A DNA stretch of 54,050 nucleotides, taken from contig JAFGIN010000180.1 of NCBI GenBank assembly GCA_016929595.1, positions 1 to 54,050 on the forward strand, given 5' to 3'. This document shows positions 34,914 to 46,695 of the stretch, piece after piece. Position numbers and translations under genes: made by a program. Below the pieces are notes generated by a model. It did not search any database. It saw nothing but the letters and a program-made list of their open reading frames with translations, and was not told the origin of the DNA. This DNA is from Chitinispirillaceae bacterium (GTDB lineage Bacteria; Fibrobacterota; Chitinivibrionia; Chitinivibrionales; Chitinispirillaceae). Position 1 is the stretch's first letter. Every line of letters begins with the position of its first letter.

Positions 34914-36056
34914 ATGGAATACTTATACAATACTATTTCAACAGCACCGCCGGTTACTCCCAAGAAGAAAGCAGCATCGTTTACATGTTTATTTGACAAA
35001 AATGAGCAGAGGCCAGGTGAAGTCCTCTGCTGTGATACAGAAGCAGCATCACTGACAGAATTTTCCCTGCAGCAATTATTCTCTTGTAAATTCACTGATT
35101 TATGTCGTGATTTTCCACTGCTGAATCCGGCTGATTTTAATAAACATATCCATTTTCGTAGCGCACTCTATACACTTTCCGGCTCACCTCTGCTCTGTGA
35201 CTTTTATGTTACTGCATTGTACAGTGTTGATGCAGTAATTCTTCAGATAATTGTACAACCGGATTCATCAGAAATATCACAACCACCGCAACGGGAATTA
35301 TTCATTCCATCCAACAAGCTTGAAATTTTAGAGCTACTGTCTCATGGCGTTTCACACAGTATTAACAATTCCATAAATCTGGTTACCCTTAGCTCAGATC
35401 TTCTTGGTGAACTGCTTGGTGACCTTTTATCACATTTTGATCCAACGACCGATATGACAATCAGAGGAATGAGCCTTACAGAACTTTCCAAACTGGTTTA
35501 TCAGTTAACTGACAACCTTTTGGAAAGTTCCTCCAGAATCAATTCTGTTTCTCAAGCTCTCGTACAATTCCTTCGGGTGAATAAAACGACTTCCGGATCC
35601 AGTTATGATTTCAGGAAAGTTATTCATGCGGCAGTAACTCTTACCGAACATGAGATCAATAAATCCTCAAATGAATTCGTCTGTGAACCGACTCAGGGCA
35701 TTATCAAGCGTACAGGGAATCAGATCGAAATTCTTCAGGCAGTTTTGAACTGTATTTTATTTTTATGCAAAAGCGTTTCTGGAAAGAATGGTCGTTTCAG
35801 TATACGTTCAATTTACAGGCCAGATCAAAACAGTTTCAGTATTGAGATGCATCATGATAAAGCTGTGCTGCCATTGAACGACATTGAACTGAGAGGTTTA
35901 CTGAAAATATCAGATGGAAACAGATACAGTAACCATCCATTATCAGTCGCTAAATCACTAATCACTGCAAATTATGGGGATCTTGATATTGTGCAGCATA
36001 AAGTAAGTGGTGTACTCATCAACGTTTCATTTTCAATGGTAAGTTCACACTGTTAA
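34914..36056 (+). CDS. Degenerate NtrB-type sensor histidine kinase
   Basis: A 380-residue soluble protein. An N-terminal PAS-like or unknown region (about 1-125) precedes a HisKA-like helix with SHGVSHSINNSINLVTLSSDLL. This is the NtrB-type H-box with His148 followed by NN, where typical members read HEINNPL. The C-terminal ATPase-like part is weak: the N-box stretch (LQAVLNCILFLCKSV) lacks the usual N-x-x-x-N-A, and no DxGxG or GxGxG box is visible. It may bind or act on the regulator encoded 36 bp downstream without ATP-dependent kinase activity of its own. ATG has no good ribosome site. The pair would control sigma-54 transcription. Confidence 0.7.
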   Translation: MEYLYNTISTAPPVTPKKKAASFTCLFDKNEQRPGEVLCCDTEAASLTEFSLQQLFSCKFTDLCRDFPLLNPADFNKHIHFRSALYTLSGSPLLCDFYVTALYSVDAVILQIIVQPDSSEISQPPQRELFIPSNKLEILELLSHGVSHSINNSINLVTLSSDLLGELLGDLLSHFDPTTDMTIRGMSLTELSKLVYQLTDNLLESSSRINSVSQALVQFLRVNKTTSGSSYDFRKVIHAAVTLTEHEINKSSNEFVCEPTQGIIKRTGNQIEILQAVLNCILFLCKSVSGKNGRFSIRSIYRPDQNSFSIEMHHDKAVLPLNDIELRGLLKISDGNRYSNHPLSVAKSLITANYGDLDIVQHKVSGVLINVSFSMVSSHC

Positions 36057-36092: not shown

Positions 36093-37538
36093 ATGAAAAG
36101 AGCTGTTTATCCGCAATACCCTGTTTTCATTGTTGATGATGACGAATCATTCAGTCGCACAGCGGCAATTACGTTGTTATCTGAAGGTATTTCCAATATC
36201 ACCATATGCAATGACAATAGCCAGCTTTTTGAACTCATAGAAAAATATCACCCGGGAATTATTCTGCTTGATGTCATGATGCCGCATCATACCGGTACAG
36301 AACTTCTTCCACAACTAAAGAAGGACCATCCGGATATAGCCGTTCTAATGATTTCTGGTGTTAATGAAGTTAAAACCGCAGTTGATGCTATGAAGAACGG
36401 AGCATTCGATTACATAGTAAAGCCCTCACGCAAAGAGGAACTTCTTTCGAGTATAAAAAAAGCCATAGAATTCCATGATATACGAAAGGAAACAGCTGCA
36501 TTAAAACAGACGGTCCTGGATAACAAATTGAAAAACCCCGAAGCGTTTAGTCAGATAGTAACCCGAAATGAAACACTTATTAATTTATTTAAATACACCG
36601 AAGCAATAGCAACAGCATTTTTACCTGCACTTATTTACGGAGAAACTGGTGTAGGTAAAGAGCTGCTGGCGCGTGCGCTGCACACATTAAGTAATCGAAA
36701 CGGAAATTTTCTCTGTGTCAACATTGCTGGTCTGGACGATTCAATGTTTTCGGATACGCTGTTTGGCCATCGACGGGGCGCGTTCAGTGGAGCGGATTCT
36801 GAACGGAGAGGCCTTATTGAAGAAGCTGCGGGTGGAACACTGTTTCTTGATGAAATTGGTGATCTCAGCCCTGAGTCCCAGGTAAAGCTTCTTCGTCTTA
36901 TTCAGGATGGCTCTTATTATCCTCTTGGTTCCGATCTGCCAAAGCACAGTACAGCCAGGATCATTGCAGCAACCAACAGAAATCTTCATGAAATGCAGAA
37001 CAACGGCTCATTTCGAAAAGATCTTTATTTTCGGCTTGAAGCACATCTGCTTCACATACCACCACTGCGTGAGAGACTCAATGATCTGCCATTACTTGTC
37101 GAACATCTTTTTCAGGAAGCATCAGACGAACTCCAAAAGAAAAAACCCTCATACCCACCTGAACTTATTACTCTTCTTCGCCAGTATTCTTTTCCAGGTA
37201 ATATCCGTGAACTGCGGGGAATGATTTTTAATGCGACAAGCCGCCACACAACCGGAATCCTATCACTTAACACATTCAAAATAAAATGTGGACGGAGTAA
37301 GCTTGACAGTCCGACCAGACATGAAACTACAGATACTTTTTCATTCCCTCAACAACTTCCAACTCTTGATGAGCTTCAACAGGCACTTATCAATGAAGCA
37401 TTCAAACGTGCGTCAGGAAATAAATCACTGGCAGCTCACATGATTGGTCTCACACGGCAGACACTTAACAACTGGATGAAAAAAAATAAAACCACTTCAT
37501 CCAACAGTCAATCCCTTACCCAATCCCTGAAACCCTGA
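36093..37538 (+). CDS. NtrC-family sigma-54-dependent response regulator
   Basis: A 481-residue three-domain activator. The receiver domain (about 5-120) has the acid pocket VDDDES, the phosphorylation site Asp60 in LLDVMMP and Lys in VKPS. The central AAA+ domain (about 160-390) has Walker A GETGVGKE (183-190) and Walker B GGTLFLDEIGDL. The sigma-54 loop reads GAFSGA (229-234) instead of the usual GAFTGA, a conservative Thr-to-Ser change. The C-terminal Fis-type helix-turn-helix (about 435-475) ends in LAAHMIGLTRQTLNNWMKK. It lies between the degenerate kinase and the chemotaxis operon, whose upstream region contains a sigma-54 promoter, so it is the likely activator of that operon. Confidence 0.93.
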   Translation: MKRAVYPQYPVFIVDDDESFSRTAAITLLSEGISNITICNDNSQLFELIEKYHPGIILLDVMMPHHTGTELLPQLKKDHPDIAVLMISGVNEVKTAVDAMKNGAFDYIVKPSRKEELLSSIKKAIEFHDIRKETAALKQTVLDNKLKNPEAFSQIVTRNETLINLFKYTEAIATAFLPALIYGETGVGKELLARALHTLSNRNGNFLCVNIAGLDDSMFSDTLFGHRRGAFSGADSERRGLIEEAAGGTLFLDEIGDLSPESQVKLLRLIQDGSYYPLGSDLPKHSTARIIAATNRNLHEMQNNGSFRKDLYFRLEAHLLHIPPLRERLNDLPLLVEHLFQEASDELQKKKPSYPPELITLLRQYSFPGNIRELRGMIFNATSRHTTGILSLNTFKIKCGRSKLDSPTRHETTDTFSFPQQLPTLDELQQALINEAFKRASGNKSLAAHMIGLTRQTLNNWMKKNKTTSSNSQSLTQSLKP

Positions 37539-37964: not shown

Positions 37965-40499
37965 ATGAACGTGCGTGAATGTCTTAACAGAGCCCTGGCA
38001 CACCTCCCAATGGTAAACTGTCAGGACTTGTCCATACTTGCAGGTGTTATCTCCGATTTAGAAAATATCGCATCAAACGGATTACTTCCGGAATCACTCC
38101 GAAAACAGGCATCACGAATATGCAAATTAGGTGAAAATATAATTCTCAATGAATCAGCCTTTGAATCCGGGATGAAAAAGTTCAACCAGAGCATCACGAT
38201 GTTAGAAAAGACACTTTATGAACTCGAACAAACATCTCAGATAGTTCAGGGTAATAATGAGATTTCTAATGATTCAGGATTGTCATCAAATGACTTAAAT
38301 GAATTGCGTGTAAAATTTGCATCACAACAGAAACCACTTCTTGATGATTTTGAGGCATATATACTTGACTTTGAAAAGAATGCACCATCAGCTCCCGATG
38401 CGATAAAAAGAATACTTCATACCTGGAAAGGTGAATTTGGAGTCCTTGATTTTCCAAAAATGAGCTGTCTGGTTCACAATATCGAAGATGCTATAGAGAA
38501 TGGTACAATAAATGCCGATGGCTTACTCAAACTTAAAGATCATCTCGCCGACTCATTTCACAAAATGGCTTCCGGTCTCCCGGTTATCCCTGCTTCTACC
38601 AGGCTTTTTTATAATACCGATACAACAGATTCTGTTGACTACAAGTCATCAGAACCTGGTACCAAAACCGGTTATCAACAAGTACAACCGTCTCAAACCG
38701 TTCAACTCCCTGAAAATGATCTATCATTAGTTCATGATTTCATACAGGAATCGCGAGACCATATACATTCTGCTGAGACACTCATGCTGGATCTTGAGTC
38801 AGATCCCACTAATACCGAATTTATAAATAGTATATTCAGATCATTTCATACAATAAAAGGTGTTTCTGGTTTCCTTGGTATCGGGGAGGTAACTGAACTC
38901 GCCCACAGTTTAGAAAATGTGATCGATCAGGCAAGAAAAAACATCCTTATAATAAAGCCTGCTCATATCGATCTTTTTTTACACTCAATGGATTGCCTGA
39001 AAGAAATTATTTCCAACATTGAAGCTGGTTGTGAAACCAACAGCTTTACAATACCTGCATCCTATTCATCGATAATGGAAAAATTGTCGGTTCCTGAAAT
39101 AATTGAATTACAATACGATATTACAACTTCAGGACCACACAAAAAACTTGGTACACTGCTCTATGAAAAAGGTGAAATCGATAATGTGCAACTGTCAGAG
39201 GCACTAAGAAAGCAGGATTCAGGAGATCTAAGGAAGATCGGTAAGATCCTTATCGAGGATAATGGCGTTCCGGTACGCTCCGTAGCAAAAGCGATAGCAG
39301 TTCAGACGCAATCCCGTATAACAAGAAATGTTGAAGAAACAATCCGGGTTCCTGTGAGCCGTCTTGATCAGCTTATTGATGCTATTGGTGAAGCAATGAT
39401 TTCGCAATCGATGGTCACTGCGGATCCTGCTGTCAAATTTTCAGATAGTCAGACACTTCTTACGAAAATTTCACAAACCAATCTTATTATGCGTCAAATT
39501 CAGGAGTTGTCCATGTCTTTACGTATGGTCTCTGTAAAAGCTACTTTCCAGAAAATGGCGCGACTCGTAAGAGATCTGTCGAAAAAACACACCAAAGAGA
39601 TAGAGTTTATTACCGAAGGAGAAGACACTGAAATCGACAAATCAGTTGTTGAAAATATTGGTGATCCACTCATACATATGATACGGAACTCCGTCGACCA
39701 TGGAATTGAAATGGCCACCGACCGTGAAGCTGCACATAAAAGCAGAATCGCAAAAATTCATCTTCGGGCATATCATAAAGCTGGCAATGTATTCATTGAG
39801 ATCCAGGATGATGGACGTGGCATTGATAAAGACGCAATTTTTGAAAAAGCGGTCTCTAAAGGGTTATGCAAACCAGATGAAAAGCTTACTGAAAATGAAA
39901 TCTATCAGTTTATCTTCCTGCCCGGTTTTTCAACAGCAAAGGTAATCACCGATGTCTCTGGTAGAGGGGTGGGGATGGATGTCGTGAAAAGAAACATTGA
40001 ATCATTGAGAGGCTCGGTCGAAATTAGCTCAGAAAAAGGGAAAGGAACTACCTTTACTATTCGATTACCCCTTACTCTTGCAATAATTGATGGAATGGTG
40101 GTTAAAGTAGATGCTGAAACATGTATCATTCCAACTCTTTCCATCATTGAAACAATATCAACATCGCATAAACACATTGAAACAGTTCTTGACAAAGGAA
40201 ACATGATTAAAGTACGGGGAAATCTTATTCCACTTCTTCACCTGTCTGGTTTATTCAACAATAACCATTCAAAACTCAATGACAAGGCAAAAGTAACTCT
40301 TATTATTGAAGATATGCTCGGCAGAAAAGCAGGACTGCTGGTTGATGAAATTATTGGGCAGCAGCAGGTGGTCATAAAAAATCTTGGTAATGGGCTTGGT
40401 GAAGTTCCCGGTATTTCCGGAGGAGCAATTATGAGCGATGGATCAGTCAGTCTCATTATAGATGTAAGCAATATTGTACGAACAGCATTTGGGAATTAA
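37965..40499 (+). CDS. cheA: Chemotaxis histidine kinase CheA with two HPt domains and an MshEN-like insert
   Basis: An 844-residue kinase. A helical N-terminus carries an HPt-like segment with His152 (LHTWKGEFGVLDF, about 130-200). A second, canonical HPt domain has His295 in SFHTIKGVSGFLG (about 248-355). Residues 394-447 form two 24-residue repeats of the MshEN c-di-GMP-binding type: K-L-G at 394-396 with Gly403 and Gln417, then K-I-G at 424-426 and Gln447, spaced by six residues. Next come the dimerisation helices (VPVSRLDQLIDAIGEAMI), the ATPase with NSVDHG, DDGRGID, FLPGFSTA and GRGVGMD, and a C-terminal CheW-like domain. No P2 domain for CheY docking is evident. ATG follows AAAGGA. It heads the operon behind the sigma-54 promoter. 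Confidence 0.93.
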   Translation: MNVRECLNRALAHLPMVNCQDLSILAGVISDLENIASNGLLPESLRKQASRICKLGENIILNESAFESGMKKFNQSITMLEKTLYELEQTSQIVQGNNEISNDSGLSSNDLNELRVKFASQQKPLLDDFEAYILDFEKNAPSAPDAIKRILHTWKGEFGVLDFPKMSCLVHNIEDAIENGTINADGLLKLKDHLADSFHKMASGLPVIPASTRLFYNTDTTDSVDYKSSEPGTKTGYQQVQPSQTVQLPENDLSLVHDFIQESRDHIHSAETLMLDLESDPTNTEFINSIFRSFHTIKGVSGFLGIGEVTELAHSLENVIDQARKNILIIKPAHIDLFLHSMDCLKEIISNIEAGCETNSFTIPASYSSIMEKLSVPEIIELQYDITTSGPHKKLGTLLYEKGEIDNVQLSEALRKQDSGDLRKIGKILIEDNGVPVRSVAKAIAVQTQSRITRNVEETIRVPVSRLDQLIDAIGEAMISQSMVTADPAVKFSDSQTLLTKISQTNLIMRQIQELSMSLRMVSVKATFQKMARLVRDLSKKHTKEIEFITEGEDTEIDKSVVENIGDPLIHMIRNSVDHGIEMATDREAAHKSRIAKIHLRAYHKAGNVFIEIQDDGRGIDKDAIFEKAVSKGLCKPDEKLTENEIYQFIFLPGFSTAKVITDVSGRGVGMDVVKRNIESLRGSVEISSEKGKGTTFTIRLPLTLAIIDGMVVKVDAETCIIPTLSIIETISTSHKHIETVLDKGNMIKVRGNLIPLLHLSGLFNNNHSKLNDKAKVTLIIEDMLGRKAGLLVDEIIGQQQVVIKNLGNGLGEVPGISGGAIMSDGSVSLIIDVSNIVRTAFGN

Positions 40500-40651: not shown

Positions 40652-41164
40652 ATGAGAGAAGAATCTACAGCAATAATTGAGAAGACTATTGGTGAAAGGT
40701 TAGCTGGTAAATATCTGACTTTTCGTCTTGCCGATGAAGAATATGGGCTTGAGATCCTGAAAGTGCAGGAGATTATCAGAATGCAGGCAGTTACCCGCGT
40801 TCCAAGAACTCCAGACTATGTCAGAGGCGTCATCAATCTTCGTGGGAAAGTGATTCCAGTTGTCGAGTTGCGTAAAAAATTCTCATTTATGCCTTGTGAA
40901 GATACTGAAAAAACCTGTATCATCGTAGTTCAGATATCCTCTTCAGACCTCTCTGTTGTCATGGGAATCATCATTGATGAGGTCAGGGAAGTTCTTGATA
41001 TTGCATCTGAAAATATTGAAGAAACACCATCGTTTGGCGCTTCGATCAATACTGATTTTATTCTTGGTATGGGCAAAATGAACGGCGACGTTAAAATTCT
41101 GCTTGACATTGATAAAGTTTTATCAATTAAAGAAATCAATGATATTCAAAGTATTGCGAAATAG
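40652..41164 (+). CDS. cheW: Chemotaxis coupling protein CheW
   Basis: A 170-residue soluble scaffold that links receptors to CheA. The conserved CheW core is clear: YLTFRLADEEYGLEILKVQEIIRMQAVTRVPRTPDYVRGVINLRGKVIPVVELRKKF, then GIIIDEVREVLDIASENIEETP and ILGMGKMNGDVKILLDIDKVL. A short N-terminal tail of about 17 residues precedes it. ATG at 40652 follows a perfect AAGGAGG. It is the second gene of the operon. The heptad repeat tract lies before it, so changes in copy number would alter spacing from cheA but not the frame. Confidence 0.95.
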   Translation: MREESTAIIEKTIGERLAGKYLTFRLADEEYGLEILKVQEIIRMQAVTRVPRTPDYVRGVINLRGKVIPVVELRKKFSFMPCEDTEKTCIIVVQISSSDLSVVMGIIIDEVREVLDIASENIEETPSFGASINTDFILGMGKMNGDVKILLDIDKVLSIKEINDIQSIAK

Positions 41165-41172
41165 GAAAGAAA

Positions 41173-41808
41173 ATGGCATTTACCTTCTTTTTCAGAGACA
41201 TACATACACTGAACTTCGCAATACGAACGATTGCACCTGAAGTAAGCGGACGTAGCTCGATACGAATCTGGGATGCTGGCTGTGCTATGGGACCGGAACC
41301 ATATACACTTGCGATACTTCTTGCTGAACACTTTGGAAAATTTTCTTTTAGAAATATCCATATAGATGCGACTGATATCGATGAACAGGATTCCTTTGGT
41401 GACATTATCAAAAAGGCCAGTTATCCTTTCGAGCAGCTCCAGCGCTTACCTGAGGAAATATTACACAAATATTTCCAGCCAACAGAAAATAAAGGCGTCT
41501 ACAGGGTTGACGATTCAATAAGAGACAAAATTCGTTTTCATAAGCACAATCTGCTCTCACTTACCCCTGTTGGAGAAGGGTATACCCTGATCGTCTGTAA
41601 AAACGTACTGCTTCATTTTACTCAAATGCAGCGTATTGAAGTCTTGAAAATGTACCATCGTTCTTTAATGCCAGGAGGTTACCTTGTCCTTGAAAGAACA
41701 CAGCAATTACCTGACGAGGTGCGCCACCTTTTTTTACCACTCTCAACAGAAGCACAGTTTTTCAAAGCAATTAACATAGAAATGAACTCATCACCCATCG
41801 GAGGATAA
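41173..41808 (+). CDS. CheR-like methyltransferase lacking the N-terminal helical domain
   Basis: A 211-residue protein matching only the catalytic domain of CheR. The SAM-binding segment is IWDAGCAMGPEPYTLAILL (about 34-52; CheR usually reads WSAGCSTGEEPYSLA), followed by IDATDID and VCKNVLLHF, where CheR reads CRNVxIYF, and LMPGGYLVLERT. The N-terminal all-helical domain that holds substrate helices and the PxxTxFFR-type loop is absent; only a short FTFFFRDIHTLNF remains at the start. The sequence is diverged from the full-length CheR encoded at 44502. It may methylate a subset of receptors or act as a SAM-binding regulator. ATG follows AGGAAAG, 8 bp after cheW. Confidence 0.82.
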   Translation: MAFTFFFRDIHTLNFAIRTIAPEVSGRSSIRIWDAGCAMGPEPYTLAILLAEHFGKFSFRNIHIDATDIDEQDSFGDIIKKASYPFEQLQRLPEEILHKYFQPTENKGVYRVDDSIRDKIRFHKHNLLSLTPVGEGYTLIVCKNVLLHFTQMQRIEVLKMYHRSLMPGGYLVLERTQQLPDEVRHLFLPLSTEAQFFKAINIEMNSSPIGG

Positions 41809-41899
41809 ATGAATAATTCTTTTTTACATTCAGGTTAAAACTTAACATTTTTTTAACATCATGACTAATTACAGTAATAACACATTTAAAGGAGATTAT

Positions 41900-44434
41900 A
41901 TGTTTAAAAATATGAAAATCGGTACCAGGTTAGGTTTTGGCTTCGGATTAGTTTTACTATTGTTAGTGGTCATGTCTATAATGACAATCATACAAATCCG
42001 TTCCATTAAGACAAGTGTCGATGTGATAGTTAATGATAGATTTCCTAAAACGGTTCTCGTTAACGAAATTATTGACGATATCAACATTGTAGCCCGTGCA
42101 CTTCGAAATATGGCTTTACTTTCAGATTCATCAAAAATAGAAGCAGAACATAAACGTATTCTTGAAGCAAGAAGTAATGTTGAAAAAAAATTTGATAAAT
42201 TAACAGAAACAGTTAAAAGCACCGAAGGGGGGAAAATTCTTGAAGCTGCTTTAAGTGCCCGAAAAGCCTATTTTCCAGTTCAGGACGAAATCATTCGTTT
42301 ATTGATCCAGAGAAAGAAGGATGTAGCAGTCTCCTTACTTTTAGGTGAGTTCCGTACATTGCAGAACCACTATATTGACTGTACTTCAGATCTTATTAAA
42401 TTTCAGACAGAATTAACTAATGAAGATGGAGAGACAGGTATTACGACTTCAAAAAATGCTGAAACCATTTTATATTTTTTAGTATCCTTTATTCTCATTT
42501 TCAGTATTATAGCAGCAGTTGTTATTACCAGATCCATCACTGGTCCTATCGGCGAGTGTATAAAAATTGCGGATAAAGTTGCTACAGGTGATACCGACAT
42601 TTCAATCGATACAGACAGCAGGGATGAAACCGGTCAGCTTCTCAATTCCCTTGGAAAAATGATTGAAAGCATTAGAAGGCTTGTTATCGATTCTGGAATG
42701 CTGTCCAAAGCTGCAGTCGAAGGTAAGCTCGACACACGTGCCGATGCCTCGAAACACCAGGGTGATTTCCGGAAAATTGTAGAAGGTGTCAATAATACGC
42801 TTGATGCTGTTATCGGCCCTCTCAATGTCGCTGCTGAATATGTTGATCGCATAAGCAAAGGTGATATTCCACAGAAAATTACCGATACCTATCATGGTGA
42901 TTTCAATGAAATCAAAAATAATCTTAACCAGTGTATCGATTCGTTAAACACCCTTATCAGTCAAATGAATCACATGGCAGATGAACATAACAAAGGTGAT
43001 ATCGACGTACAGATAGATACCGTTAAATTCCAGGGTGTATATAAAACGATGGCTCAGGAAACCAACAATATGGTCAATGGTCATATTAATGTAAAGAAAA
43101 AGGCAATGGCCTGTGTTTCTGAATTCGGTCGCGGTAATTTTGATGCTCCTCTTGAAAAATTCCCGGGGAAAAAAGCATTTATCAACGATACAATTGAGGA
43201 TGTCAGACTAAATCTCAAAAATATCGCAAAAGAACTCAATACTTTAATCGATTCATCCAAGAATGGTTCACTTAGCACACGCGGCAATGCGGCTGCTTAC
43301 CAGGGCGACTGGAGAGCCATGATCCATGGTGTAAATGAAATTCTTGATGCCATACTGATGCCTATCAATGAAGCTGCTGTAGTTCTTGACAAAGTTGCCG
43401 CACGGGATATGACTGCAAGAGTGGTTGGAGAATATAAAGGTGATCATGCAAAAATCAAAAACTCTCTGAATATGGCCGTAGACAATCTTGACAAAGCCCT
43501 TCAACAGGTAACCGAAGCAACCGAACAGGTATCCTCCGCAAGCGGACAGATCTCATTGGGAAGCCAGAGCCTCGCACAGGGTGCCAACGAACAGGCCAGT
43601 TCCCTCGAGGAAGTTTCATCCAGCCTTGAAGAGATGGCTTCCATGACAAAGCAGAATGCTGGCAATGCAAATCAGGCAAAAGGGCTTGCTGCCGAATCAG
43701 ACGGAAATGCCAAAACTGGCACAGAAGCAATGAATCGCATGTCTGGCGCGATCAATCGTATCAAAGAATCATCTGATCAGACAGCAAAAATTGTCAAGAC
43801 CATCGATGAAATCGCCATGCAGACTAACTTGCTCGCGCTTAATGCTGCAGTTGAGGCTGCACGAGCTGGTGAAGCAGGAAGAGGGTTTGCTGTTGTCGCA
43901 GAAGAAGTACGAAACCTTGCTCAGCGCAGTGCCCAGGCTGCGAAAAATACTGCTGACATGATTACCGAGTCGGTTAAAAATGCGGATGAAGGTGTAAAAA
44001 TTGCCGTGGAGGTATCACAGTCCTTCGAGACGATTGCTACAAGCGCGAAAAAAGTCAATGATCTCATTGCCGAGATTGCCGCAGCTTCACAAGAACAGTC
44101 ATTGGGCATTGAACAAATCAATATTGCAGTTTCCCAAATGGACAATGTGACACAACAGAATGCTGCAAATTCTGAAGAATCTGCCAGTGCAGCCGAAGAG
44201 TTGAACAGTCAATCTGAAGAGCTTAAGAATATGATCACTCAATTCGCACTATCGCGCAACATAATGAGTGCCTCTGCACCCGGGAAAATGGCAAAGTCAC
44301 ATACGTTTGTCCATTCAGGTGTGAAAGAAAAAGGTTCAATCAAGACAAACGCTAAAAAGCCTTCAGGTAAAACGACATCCATAAAATCAGAGGATATCAT
44401 TCCTCTTGATGATGATGTATTGAAAGAATTTTAA
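41900..44434 (+). CDS. Methyl-accepting chemotaxis protein with tandem HAMP-type domains
   Basis: An 844-residue receptor from ATG 41900, chosen for the strong AAAGGAG site; an ATG 13 codons earlier lacks one. A first helix (about 12-34), a periplasmic four-helix-bundle sensor (about 40-190) and a second helix (about 194-216) precede a standard HAMP. Several further HAMP-like repeats then occupy about 270-530, a poly-HAMP arrangement. The signalling domain is canonical: [35 protein letters not shown] at the hairpin tip. The C-terminus has no NWETF-type tether; it ends in DDDVLKEF. It is the only receptor in the operon and is likely the main input of this CheA. Confidence 0.93.
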
Positions 44435-44442
44435 CATTTCCA

Positions 44443-44475
44443 ATCCGCTGCCGACTCATTTTTTCGGCAGCGGAT
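44443..44475 (+). terminator. Strong hairpin between mcp and cheR
   Basis: ATCCGCTGCCGA (44443-44454) and TCGGCAGCGGAT (44464-44475) form a perfect 12-bp GC-rich stem with a 9-nt loop, followed by CTTTAA. It could partly terminate the operon, lowering downstream gene levels, or stabilise the mcp message. The T-run after it is short. Confidence 0.62.
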
Positions 44476-44501
44476 CTTTAACCTCAACTCTGTACATAAC
44501 T

Positions 44502-45296
44502 ATGAAACAAGATACATTCAATCAATTTTGTTCGATAATTTACGAACGTTCGGGTATCTCACTTGGAGATAAAAAAGAAGCCCTTGTAGCTGCCCGGGTT
44601 GGAAAACGAACCCGACAACTTGGACTTGACTCAATTGAAGACTATCTGATCTACGTTCAAAAAGACGGGACAGGTGATGAGATCATTCACCTGCTTGATG
44701 CAATATCTACAAATGTAACGTACTTTTTCAGGGAAACCGAACATTTTAATGCTATTACACAATGTTTCCTTGAATGGCTCTCTCATGGCAAGCGTACTTT
44801 CCGATTCTGGTCTGCGGGTTGCTCCTCCGGAGAAGAACCCTACTCAATTGCAATTACACTGCTTGAAGCGCTTTTGAACAGACCTCTGCCTGATATAAAA
44901 ATTCTTGCAACAGACCTTTCAACCAAAGTCCTGACTACAGCATCGGCAGGAATCTATGATTCCAAAAAAGTAGAAAACCTCCCCGAAACAATACTTAGAA
45001 AATATTTTGTTTCGGATAATAATGAATATCATATCAACGATTCAGTCCGTTCGTTGATCACCTTTTCCAGGCTTAACCTCTCTGCGATTCCTTTTCCAAT
45101 GAATGGACCAATGGATATGATATTGTGCAGAAATGTTATGATCTATTTTGATCAGCCATTCAGGAAACAATTAATTTCTGAATACCACAGATTACTGAAA
45201 CCTGGTGGCTACCTTCTTGTCGGTCATTCAGAAAGTCTGACAGGATTAATAAACGGATTCAAAACAATTGCTCCGTCAATTTATATCAAAATCTGA
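44502..45296 (+). CDS. cheR: Chemotaxis protein methyltransferase CheR
   Basis: A 264-residue SAM-dependent methyltransferase that methylates receptor glutamates. Both domains are present: the N-terminal helical domain (about 1-75) ends in NVTYFFRETEHF, and the catalytic domain has RFWSAGCSSGEEPYSIAITLL (about 100-120), ILATDLSTKVL and MILCRNVMIYFD. Length matches the family (270-290). No CheB is encoded in the operon to reverse it, although cheD is. The ribosome site is weak, and it follows a strong hairpin after mcp. Confidence 0.95.
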   Translation: MKQDTFNQFCSIIYERSGISLGDKKEALVAARVGKRTRQLGLDSIEDYLIYVQKDGTGDEIIHLLDAISTNVTYFFRETEHFNAITQCFLEWLSHGKRTFRFWSAGCSSGEEPYSIAITLLEALLNRPLPDIKILATDLSTKVLTTASAGIYDSKKVENLPETILRKYFVSDNNEYHINDSVRSLITFSRLNLSAIPFPMNGPMDMILCRNVMIYFDQPFRKQLISEYHRLLKPGGYLLVGHSESLTGLINGFKTIAPSIYIKI

Positions 45297-45366
45297 TATA
45301 GGATTATTTTATGACATTAAATCAGATAACGCTCACCATAGTCCTACTTTTTCCCTTGGAGTATTT

Positions 45367-45771
45367 ATGAGAATTCTGATCGTTGATGATGATGTTACAA
45401 GCGGGTTGGTAATGCAGAAAATGTTAGTCAGATATGGAGAGACAACAATAACCTCTGACGGCAGGCAGGCTCTTGATGTCTTTAAGGAACATATTAAAGG
45501 TAAAAAACCATTCGATCTCATGTTTCTTGATATCATGCTGCCTGAAATGGATGGACAGGAAGTGCTTAAAAACATTCGTGATTTTGAATTAGAAAACGCT
45601 ATTACAGGTTCCGATGGTATTAAAATTATCATGACGACAGCTCTTGATGATAATAAAAATATCATCAGCGCTTTTCGCTCTCAATGCGAAGGATATATTG
45701 TAAAACCAGTTTCACTGACAAAAATCAAAAACCAGATGAATACCCTTGGTTTTACAGAAAAAACATTATAA
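45367..45771 (+). CDS. Single-domain response regulator (CheY-like)
   Basis: A 134-residue stand-alone receiver domain from ATG 45367 (GGAG six bases upstream). An upstream in-frame start inside cheR is rejected because the receiver begins at MRILIVDDD. The acid pocket is VDDDVTSG, the phosphorylation site is the Asp of MFLDIMLPEMDG, and the late Thr and Lys of IMTTAL and YIVKPVS are in place. It is somewhat unlike classic CheY (long loop KGKKPFD, insertion NAITGSDGI), so it may be a phosphate sink or act on a different target. It lies between cheR and cheD, and a second CheY follows cheD. Confidence 0.88.
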   Translation: MRILIVDDDVTSGLVMQKMLVRYGETTITSDGRQALDVFKEHIKGKKPFDLMFLDIMLPEMDGQEVLKNIRDFELENAITGSDGIKIIMTTALDDNKNIISAFRSQCEGYIVKPVSLTKIKNQMNTLGFTEKTL

Positions 45772-45792
45772 CACGAAACAAGTAAGTGGCAC

Positions 45793-46293
45793 ATGAACAC
45801 CAGCTCAACGCATTCAATACGACATACAATCGGAATCTCAGAAATGAAATTCAGTAACAATCCGGGAGACATTCTTGTTACTCATGCACTTGGCTCATGT
45901 GTTGGAATTGTGATTTATGACCCGGTACATGTTGTCGGAGGTATGTTACATTATATGCTTCCATTGTCGACAATAGATAAGGATAAAGCCACCAGGAACC
46001 CACTTATGTTTGGTGACACTGGTATTCCGTTGCTTTTTCAGGAGATATATAAGTACGGTTCAGTTAAGTCAGATCTCAGAATCGTTATGGCTGGAGGAGC
46101 AAACATTTTCCAGAAAACCGAATATTTTGACATAGGAAACCGCAATATAACAATTGCAAGAAAACTCTTCTGGAAAAATAACGTCATGATTTCGGCTGAA
46201 AATATTGGCGGCAATATACCCAGAACTCTTTACCTGGAGATCGGCAGCGGGAAAACATGGTTTACCAGCAATGGTAAATCGTACGAACTTTAA
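45793..46293 (+). CDS. cheD: Chemoreceptor glutamine deamidase CheD
   Basis: A 166-residue CheD. It deamidates receptor glutamines and in some bacteria partners with CheC/CheX. The catalytic Cys is in ALGSCVGIVIYDP and the His in GGMLHYMLP; the glycine-rich AGGANIFQKTEYFDIGNRN loop is also conserved. With no cheB in the operon, CheD may be the only dedicated enzyme here that alters the receptor's modification sites from the opposite direction to CheR. The ribosome site before ATG is weak. Confidence 0.94.
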   Translation: MNTSSTHSIRHTIGISEMKFSNNPGDILVTHALGSCVGIVIYDPVHVVGGMLHYMLPLSTIDKDKATRNPLMFGDTGIPLLFQEIYKYGSVKSDLRIVMAGGANIFQKTEYFDIGNRNITIARKLFWKNNVMISAENIGGNIPRTLYLEIGSGKTWFTSNGKSYEL

Positions 46294-46314
46294 ATTCTTG
46301 ATGAGGTATAATCT

Positions 46315-46695
46315 ATGAGTTTTTCAATACTGATTGCAGATGATTCTGAAATTATCCGTGAAGTTCTCGAGCGAACCATTCGTATGACACAAATTTCATT
46401 CGATAAAATTCACAAGGCGGCCAACGGTTCTGAAGCCCTGACAATTTTAAACGATCAGTGGGTCGATATTGTCTTTACTGATATTCATATGCCAATCATG
46501 GGTGGAATAGAACTGATTAAAACGATGCGAAAATCGCCTGAACTGAATGACACTCCTGTTGTAGTCATATCTACCGAAGGAAGCTCTGCAAGAATCGAGG
46601 AGCTTAAATCACTCGATATCAAAGGATATCTCAGAAAACCATTTACACCAGAAAGCATCAGAGACACACTCACAGGAATACTTGGAGTAACATGA
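46315..46695 (+). CDS. cheY: Chemotaxis response regulator CheY
   Basis: A 126-residue receiver protein. The DDS acid pocket (LIADDSEIIREVLERTI), the phosphorylation Asp in VFTDIHMPIMGGIEL, the switch Thr/Ser in VVISTEGS and Lys in YLRKPFTPE are all present. Compared with the regulator at 45367 it is closer to the classic CheY pattern. ATG follows GAGGT. It is the last gene of the operon. Confidence 0.92.
   Translation: MSFSILIADDSEIIREVLERTIRMTQISFDKIHKAANGSEALTILNDQWVDIVFTDIHMPIMGGIELIKTMRKSPELNDTPVVVISTEGSSARIEELKSLDIKGYLRKPFTPESIRDTLTGILGVT

Follow-up and report, generated by a model that had tools for sequence, protein, structure and literature searches.

A candidate MshEN-type cyclic-di-GMP receptor module in the P2 place of CheA histidine kinases

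Most of what is known of the crosstalk between cyclic di-GMP (c-di-GMP) signalling and chemotaxis concerns brake proteins, PilZ adaptors and receptors. In the CheA of Escherichia coli, the P2 domain is located between P1 and P3 and is flanked by long flexible linkers. CheA proteins that consist of HPt, dimerisation, HATPase and CheW domains and have no P2 are described in a survey of CheA architectures (Berry, Andrianova and Zhulin 2023, PMC10782961), in which the region from the HPt to the dimerisation domain of these proteins is described as unstructured and the words MshEN and c-di-GMP are absent. Examples of a c-di-GMP receptor domain within a chemosensory or kinase protein are Cbp1 (PMC6454048), a PilZ chemoreceptor, and SgmT (PMC3509222), a hybrid kinase that is not a CheA; the protein described here is like them in this respect and unlike them in being a CheA with an MshEN module. 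The MshEN-CheA fusion is not new as a type: one sentence of Wang et al. 2016 (PMC5013675) places CheA and CheX among the MshEN fusions. A later paper testing this pairing was not found in the open-access literature, nor was a c-di-GMP binding test on any CheA or a c-di-GMP-dependent kinase assay. Earlier descriptions were not found of the P1-MshEN-P3 cassette with its fixed layout, of the conservation of its ligand residues or of the branches with degraded sites, all of which are reported below.

The MshEN domain of Vibrio cholerae MshE (VcMshEN; structure 5htl, PMC5013675) is built on two 24-residue motifs and a four-helix N-subdomain, with Gly3 and Gln24 as ligand contacts and hydrophobic residues at positions 2, 17 and 21, and its N-subdomain alone binds c-di-GMP as well as the whole domain. 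The GSPII-B domain of the Thermus thermophilus pilus ATPase PilF (8pdk, 8pkz; PMC11731258) has Lys as the first residue of motif I, shows hydrophobic stacking, keeps both Gln24 residues and binds with a KD of 6 nM; its authors have extended the position-1 consensus to Arg/Lys/Leu. Binding of the ligand to PilF was found to unwind helix 1 at its first turn and to reorient the adjoining subdomain (PMC11731258). XpsE, with the substitutions G11V, G40L and Q61V, and PilF GSPII-A, with H33, A41 and R62 at the ligand sites (PMC12002112), are known MshEN folds that do not bind. Work on the latter domain indicates that near-consensus motifs may fail to bind owing to helix capping and subdomain contacts, while in an engineered version Ile in place of Leu at both positions 17 and 21 of motif II caused only a 2.4-fold loss (PMC12002112).

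The window analysed here is the whole stretch of 54,050 nucleotides (positions 1 to 54,050 of contig JAFGIN010000180.1, assembly GCA_016929595.1) from a Chitinispirillaceae bacterium. An open reading frame at 37965-40499 encodes a CheA histidine kinase of 844 residues; this gene with its domains and the che genes downstream of it all lie on the forward strand. The HPt, dimerisation, HATPase and CheW-like domains each score above the Pfam gathering threshold, and the domain order is HPt1, HPt2, MshEN, P3 dimerisation, P4 HATPase and P5 CheW-like. The first HPt (38298-38579, limits approximate), assigned from a second Pfam Hpt stretch, carries the phospho-acceptor His152 in HTWKGEFG; the string HTWKGEFGVL is strongly conserved in the closest CheAs, and this N-terminal HPt is absent from many relatives that retain MshEN. 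The second, P1-like HPt (38727-39020, Pfam Hpt residues 255-352) has His295 in FHTIKG and is confirmed as a P1 domain by an AlphaFold2 model of residues 245-530, which matches the CheA P1 structures 1i5n and 1tqg. About ten residues past the second MshEN motif begins the P3 dimerisation domain (H-kinase_dim, residues 458-518, 39336-39518), followed by the P4 HATPase_c domain (residues 567-704, 39663-40076) and the P5 CheW-like domain (residues 710-840, 40092-40484), all assigned with Pfam. The P2/CheY-binding domain, which is optional in the CheA family, gave no Pfam match in this protein at E-values up to 1, and its place is occupied by the MshEN module. A predicted folded domain is thus located where the 2023 survey expected none.

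The original prediction placed an MshEN-type module in residues 394-447 (39144-39305), and the two 24-residue repeats are located there as claimed. Motif I, KLGTLLYEKGEIDNVQLSEALRKQ (residues 394-417, 39144-39215), is joined through the spacer DSGDLR (39216-39233) to motif II, KIGKILIEDNGVPVRSVAKAIAVQ (residues 424-447, 39234-39305). The residues that had been named were all found in place (Lys1, Gly3 and Gln24 in both repeats; Gly10, Leu17 and Leu21 in the first; Asn10 in the second), as was the spacing of six residues compared with five in the classic domain; the length of this spacer varies among the CheA versions in the alignment. Both motifs are recognised by NCBIfam NF053729, AlphaFold2, Foldseek and conservation. 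The profile NF053729 (MshE-related c-di-GMP domain) is matched end to end, over positions 1-53 of 53, with E-values of 2.1e-6 when the complete CheA is searched and 8e-8 with the fragment alone, and with scores of 27.4 bits (whole protein), 31.9 bits (fragment) and 31.3 bits (genome search), which are below the curated cut-off of 38 bits, a curation threshold and not a property of the domain. The module was not detected by Pfam in this CheA. NF053729 is matched by every one of the 55 CheA modules in the alignment (best E 6e-16), and among the matches listed, the cut-off is passed by 8 of 10 CheA modules (39.6-57.1 bits). A phmmer search with an 87-residue segment retrieved Thermus PilF domains with solved c-di-GMP complexes (E 5e-5 to 0.01), and a profile of the 55 CheA modules matched in the PDB the PilF full chain (3.5e-30), PilF 8pdk (1.1e-9) and MshE 5htl (1.9e-9). 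Pairs of ligand-position motifs at the observed spacing were obtained zero times in 20,000 shuffles of the CheA sequence; a chance repeat is ruled out by the shuffles together with the NF053729 match and the search of the CheA profile against the PDB. A weak match to PF14332 (DUF4388) was also observed in 32 of the 55 modules of alignment A2 (best E 1.3e-5), hinting, at the level of sequence, that DUF4388 may contain an MshEN-like unit.

The AlphaFold2 model of residues 386-456, computed with alignment A2, has four helices, a mean pLDDT of 86 and a core above 90, and reproduces the four-helix bundle of the MshEN N-subdomain, superposing on the MshE (5htl) and PilF (8pdk) structures. The top 11 Foldseek matches are all c-di-GMP-bound PilF GSPII-B or MshE structures, with probability 1.00 and an rmsd of 1.2-1.7 Å over 55-57 columns, the E-values of 0.05-0.4 being due to the small size of the domain. 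PilF GSPII-B provides the top structural matches, the rmsd to VcMshEN is 1.2-1.3 Å and the non-binding PilF GSPII-A ranks lower, with an rmsd of 3.1 Å. Profile searches, the predicted structure and sequences from several phyla together give good support to the homology that had been proposed, to the fold and to the conservation of the ligand site, and the identification of residues 394-447 as a genuine MshEN (GSPII N-subdomain) module is well supported by the sequence and the predicted fold. Unlike VcMshEN, the CheA module has Lys for Arg at position 1, Ile or Val for some Leu residues, a six-residue spacer, Asn10 in motif II and no C-subdomain, and its host is a CheA instead of a secretion ATPase. 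It differs from PilF GSPII-B in that the latter is part of a pilus ATPase, has a C-subdomain and begins motif II with Leu. The missing C-subdomain is no obstacle to binding, since the isolated VcMshEN N-subdomain binds like the whole domain.

As for the positions that had been taken as ligand contacts, the basic residue at 1, Gly3, positions 17 and 21 and Gln24 are indeed contacts, while Gly10 is a turn residue and position 2 (Leu/Ile), missing from the earlier list, is also a contact (PMC5013675). The contact positions 1, 2, 3, 17, 21 and 24 read K-L-G..L..L..Q in motif I and K-I-G..V..I..Q in motif II and, judged from the aligned sequences, lie within or near the range of substitutions for which binding has been demonstrated in PilF. 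The relaxed pattern that Wang et al. 2016 gave for the 24 residues fails at position 11 in each motif and also at position 10 in motif II, and failure at these turn positions is typical of the CheA versions; according to the same authors, perfect motif conservation may not be required (PMC5013675). Asn at position 10 of motif II was considered as a fatal defect and rejected: the position serves the turn between the helices, so that Asn10 is not a contact change, and Gly is found there in only 23 of 64 CheA modules, the others having Lys (14), Gln (5), Asn (4) or other residues.

Conservation of the site was examined in these 64 CheA module sequences, which share less than 70% identity. Gly3 is present in 64/64 for both motif I and motif II, and Gln24 is kept in 57/64 for motif I and 63/64 for motif II. 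Mean entropy is 1.02 bits at the contact positions and 2.28 bits at the remaining positions of the motifs (p 9e-5 by permutation). Among 24 relatives, selected because they carry the module, the only columns of the module without variation are those of Gly3 and Gln24 in each motif and two hydrophobic positions of the core. Since the known non-binders keep the fold without Gly3 and Gln24, conservation of these residues points to a working ligand site and not to the fold alone. Binding of c-di-GMP by the module is considered likely from its sequence and by analogy with the characterised domains; most likely, the module would hold one c-di-GMP, each motif clamping one guanine. A functional site with another main ligand, such as 3',3'-cGAMP, would be in keeping with the weak binding of cGAMP by VcMshEN (PMC5013675) and with position 4 and the motif termini, in which the CheA versions are unlike VcMshEN. 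However, the affinity of VcMshEN for cGAMP is several-hundred-fold worse than for c-di-GMP (PMC5013675), the guanine is read by conserved backbone contacts at both sites and many ordinary GGDEF domains are encoded in the genome, which makes such a ligand highly improbable.

To examine the distribution of the module, relatives were sought with the CheA core in 60 related genomes and in a wider scan of 84,980 species genomes, from which the best 80 matches, mostly from metagenome-assembled genomes, were considered. The module is present in most CheAs of the branch to which the window CheA belongs, and the cassette of HPt, MshEN and dimerisation domain was found in Fibrobacterota (including Chitinispirillia and Chitinivibrionales), Desulfobacterota, Planctomycetota, Hydrogenedentota and KSB1, the comparison with CheA homologues thus revealing both module and ligand residues in relatives from several phyla. 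Nineteen of the CheAs that were compared have sequences identical to named records, most of them from Fibrobacterota, and the host is placed in this phylum accordingly. All four Gly3/Gln24 residues are intact in CheA modules of Desulfobacterota, Planctomycetota, Hydrogenedentota and KSB1. Among the 79 loci scanned from the best 80 matches, the module scores at least 25 bits in 56, is weak in 10 and is not found in 13, 56/79 not being a frequency, since the ranking favoured MshEN-bearing matches. A search of viral contigs for close relatives found nothing. Some CheAs of Hydrogenedentota have two or three consecutive MshEN units; the several overlapping MshEN matches before P3 in L092 and L094 of this phylum suggest chains of half-motifs to which more than one c-di-GMP could bind. 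In planctomycetes, an MshEN-bearing ORF lies a few kb from CheAs that have no MshEN (L082:683-2476; L089), and the one in L082 is a GspE/PilB-type ATPase that begins with its own MshEN.

The module also appears in shortened or decayed form. Motif I is shortened and has no Gln24 in one mostly Desulfobacteraceae branch (L063, L064, L071, L076, L078, L081, L104 and L112), and among the several CheAs of the genome under study, a second one (L009, contig C208, 55162-55896) has before its dimerisation domain a shortened remnant, VPMIGEILLSKGDVTKKEIDVVREA--NKRFGEKAIELGVTSKDKVSSALFEQ, without the Gln24 of motif I. As this branch and the second CheA keep the shortened module, an intact site is not needed for the fold to persist. 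L023 shares 72% identity with the window CheA over the kinase core, and its genome has 27 GGDEF matches; an unrelated low-complexity linker replaces the module in this protein, so that the module is dispensable for the kinase core. In L020 it looks decayed. As judged from the sequences, the module is lost or degraded several times, and losses and degradation are scattered while the MshEN-bearing CheAs cluster in a quick tree that has long branches for some paralogues and was used only for the MshEN grouping. A correlation between loss of the module and loss of c-di-GMP signalling is not possible, since GGDEF domains are found in 31/31 genomes tested, including those with a module-less CheA; the losses are therefore not accounted for by whether c-di-GMP signalling is present.

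These degraded versions bear on an alternative in which the module is a relict MshEN fold that does not bind c-di-GMP and acts either as a structural spacer or in the role of P2, where it would dock receivers of the CheY type beside P1. The location at the P2 place in CheAs without P2, the members that have a shortened module with no Gln24 in motif I, the window score below the curated cut-off and the precedent of XpsE and PilF GSPII-A as non-binding MshEN folds are all compatible with such a role. Nevertheless, among the polar or small sites of the module the highest conservation is that of Gly3 and Gln24, whereas the known non-binders keep the fold without them, and the conserved surface patches elsewhere that docking predicts were not seen in the 24-relative and 64-module comparisons; a relict is thus considered unlikely.

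For the window CheA, the reading preferred here, that of an MshEN c-di-GMP receptor in the P2 place which probably tunes the access of P1 to the kinase, is held to be fairly probable. Measured from the phospho-acceptor His of the HPt closer to it, the module lies at a median distance of 98 residues (mostly 90-110), and P3 follows the module at a median of 11 residues (mostly 6-18); as both spacings are narrow, the P1-MshEN-P3 cassette is of near-constant length across phyla, unlike the corresponding region of E. coli CheA with its long flexible linkers. As the flanking linkers are short and of near-constant length, a ligand would most likely alter the reach of P1 to P4. On the simplest mechanism, ligand binding would change the mobility of P1 or its access to the ATP-binding P4, and c-di-GMP would in this way set the gain of receptor-controlled autophosphorylation, with flagella or another target as candidate outputs. 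An effect of c-di-GMP on the kinase, suggested by the placement of the domain only, is considered somewhat probable. Tentatively, at slightly less than an even chance, the same may hold for a P2-less CheA branch spanning several phyla, in which the receptor would form a ligand-gated hinge between P1 and P3 and c-di-GMP would gate phosphorylation beside the receptor input. If true, the motile-to-sessile decision would be placed inside the kinase, in a CheA that carries a c-di-GMP receptor of its own; the comparison provides a defined conserved cassette and separates the branches with intact sites from those with degraded ones.

Binding of c-di-GMP might instead control something other than kinase activity, such as the assembly of arrays, polar placement or the turnover of CheA. 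The data do not separate catalysis from localisation, and the low-confidence loops that flank the module on both sides in the AlphaFold2 model would allow it to move as a separate domain; the model of residues 245-530 (pTM 0.54) gives no dependable arrangement of MshEN with respect to P1 and P3. Against this, the position between P1 and P3 with short, near-fixed linkers suggests action on the P1-P4 geometry, and non-kinase control is regarded as quite improbable.

The original prediction had also drawn support for the coupling from a cyclase and an HD-GYP protein encoded in the window. The cyclase does have an RxxD I-site, the sequence RDYD located five residues ahead of GGDEF, and the HD-GYP protein has the canonical form, but the two are located about 35 kb and about 11 kb, respectively, from CheA. 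In a simple motif scan, c-di-GMP enzyme genes were not seen within 6 kb of the related CheAs, the sole GGDEF-like string being inside an ORF as long as CheA itself. Linkage to c-di-GMP enzymes was rejected as support, the window genes being distant and none occurring near the related CheAs, and the GGDEF and HD-GYP genes of the window add no weight. The genome has 14 GGDEF matches and FliG, and thus encodes c-di-GMP synthesis and a flagellar motor.

Downstream of CheA, a che operon extends over 40652-46695 and includes CheD, two CheR-type methyltransferases and two single-domain receivers. Its genes, assigned with Pfam, encode CheW (40652-41164), a CheR-type methyltransferase without the CheR_N domain (41173-41808), a methyl-accepting chemotaxis protein with 4HB_MCP, several HAMP and MCPsignal domains (41861-44434), CheR (44502-45296), a single-domain receiver whose translation suggests a start probably at an internal ATG (45268-45771), CheD (45793-46293) and a CheY-like single-domain receiver (46315-46695); CheB was not seen among the genes examined in this region (window 40652-46695). 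Before the operon lies a gene for an NtrC-type sigma-54 response regulator (36093-37538), and upstream of it one for a 380-residue protein with no Pfam match over the cut-off (34914-36056); these two proteins possibly serve in the transcriptional control of the che operon.
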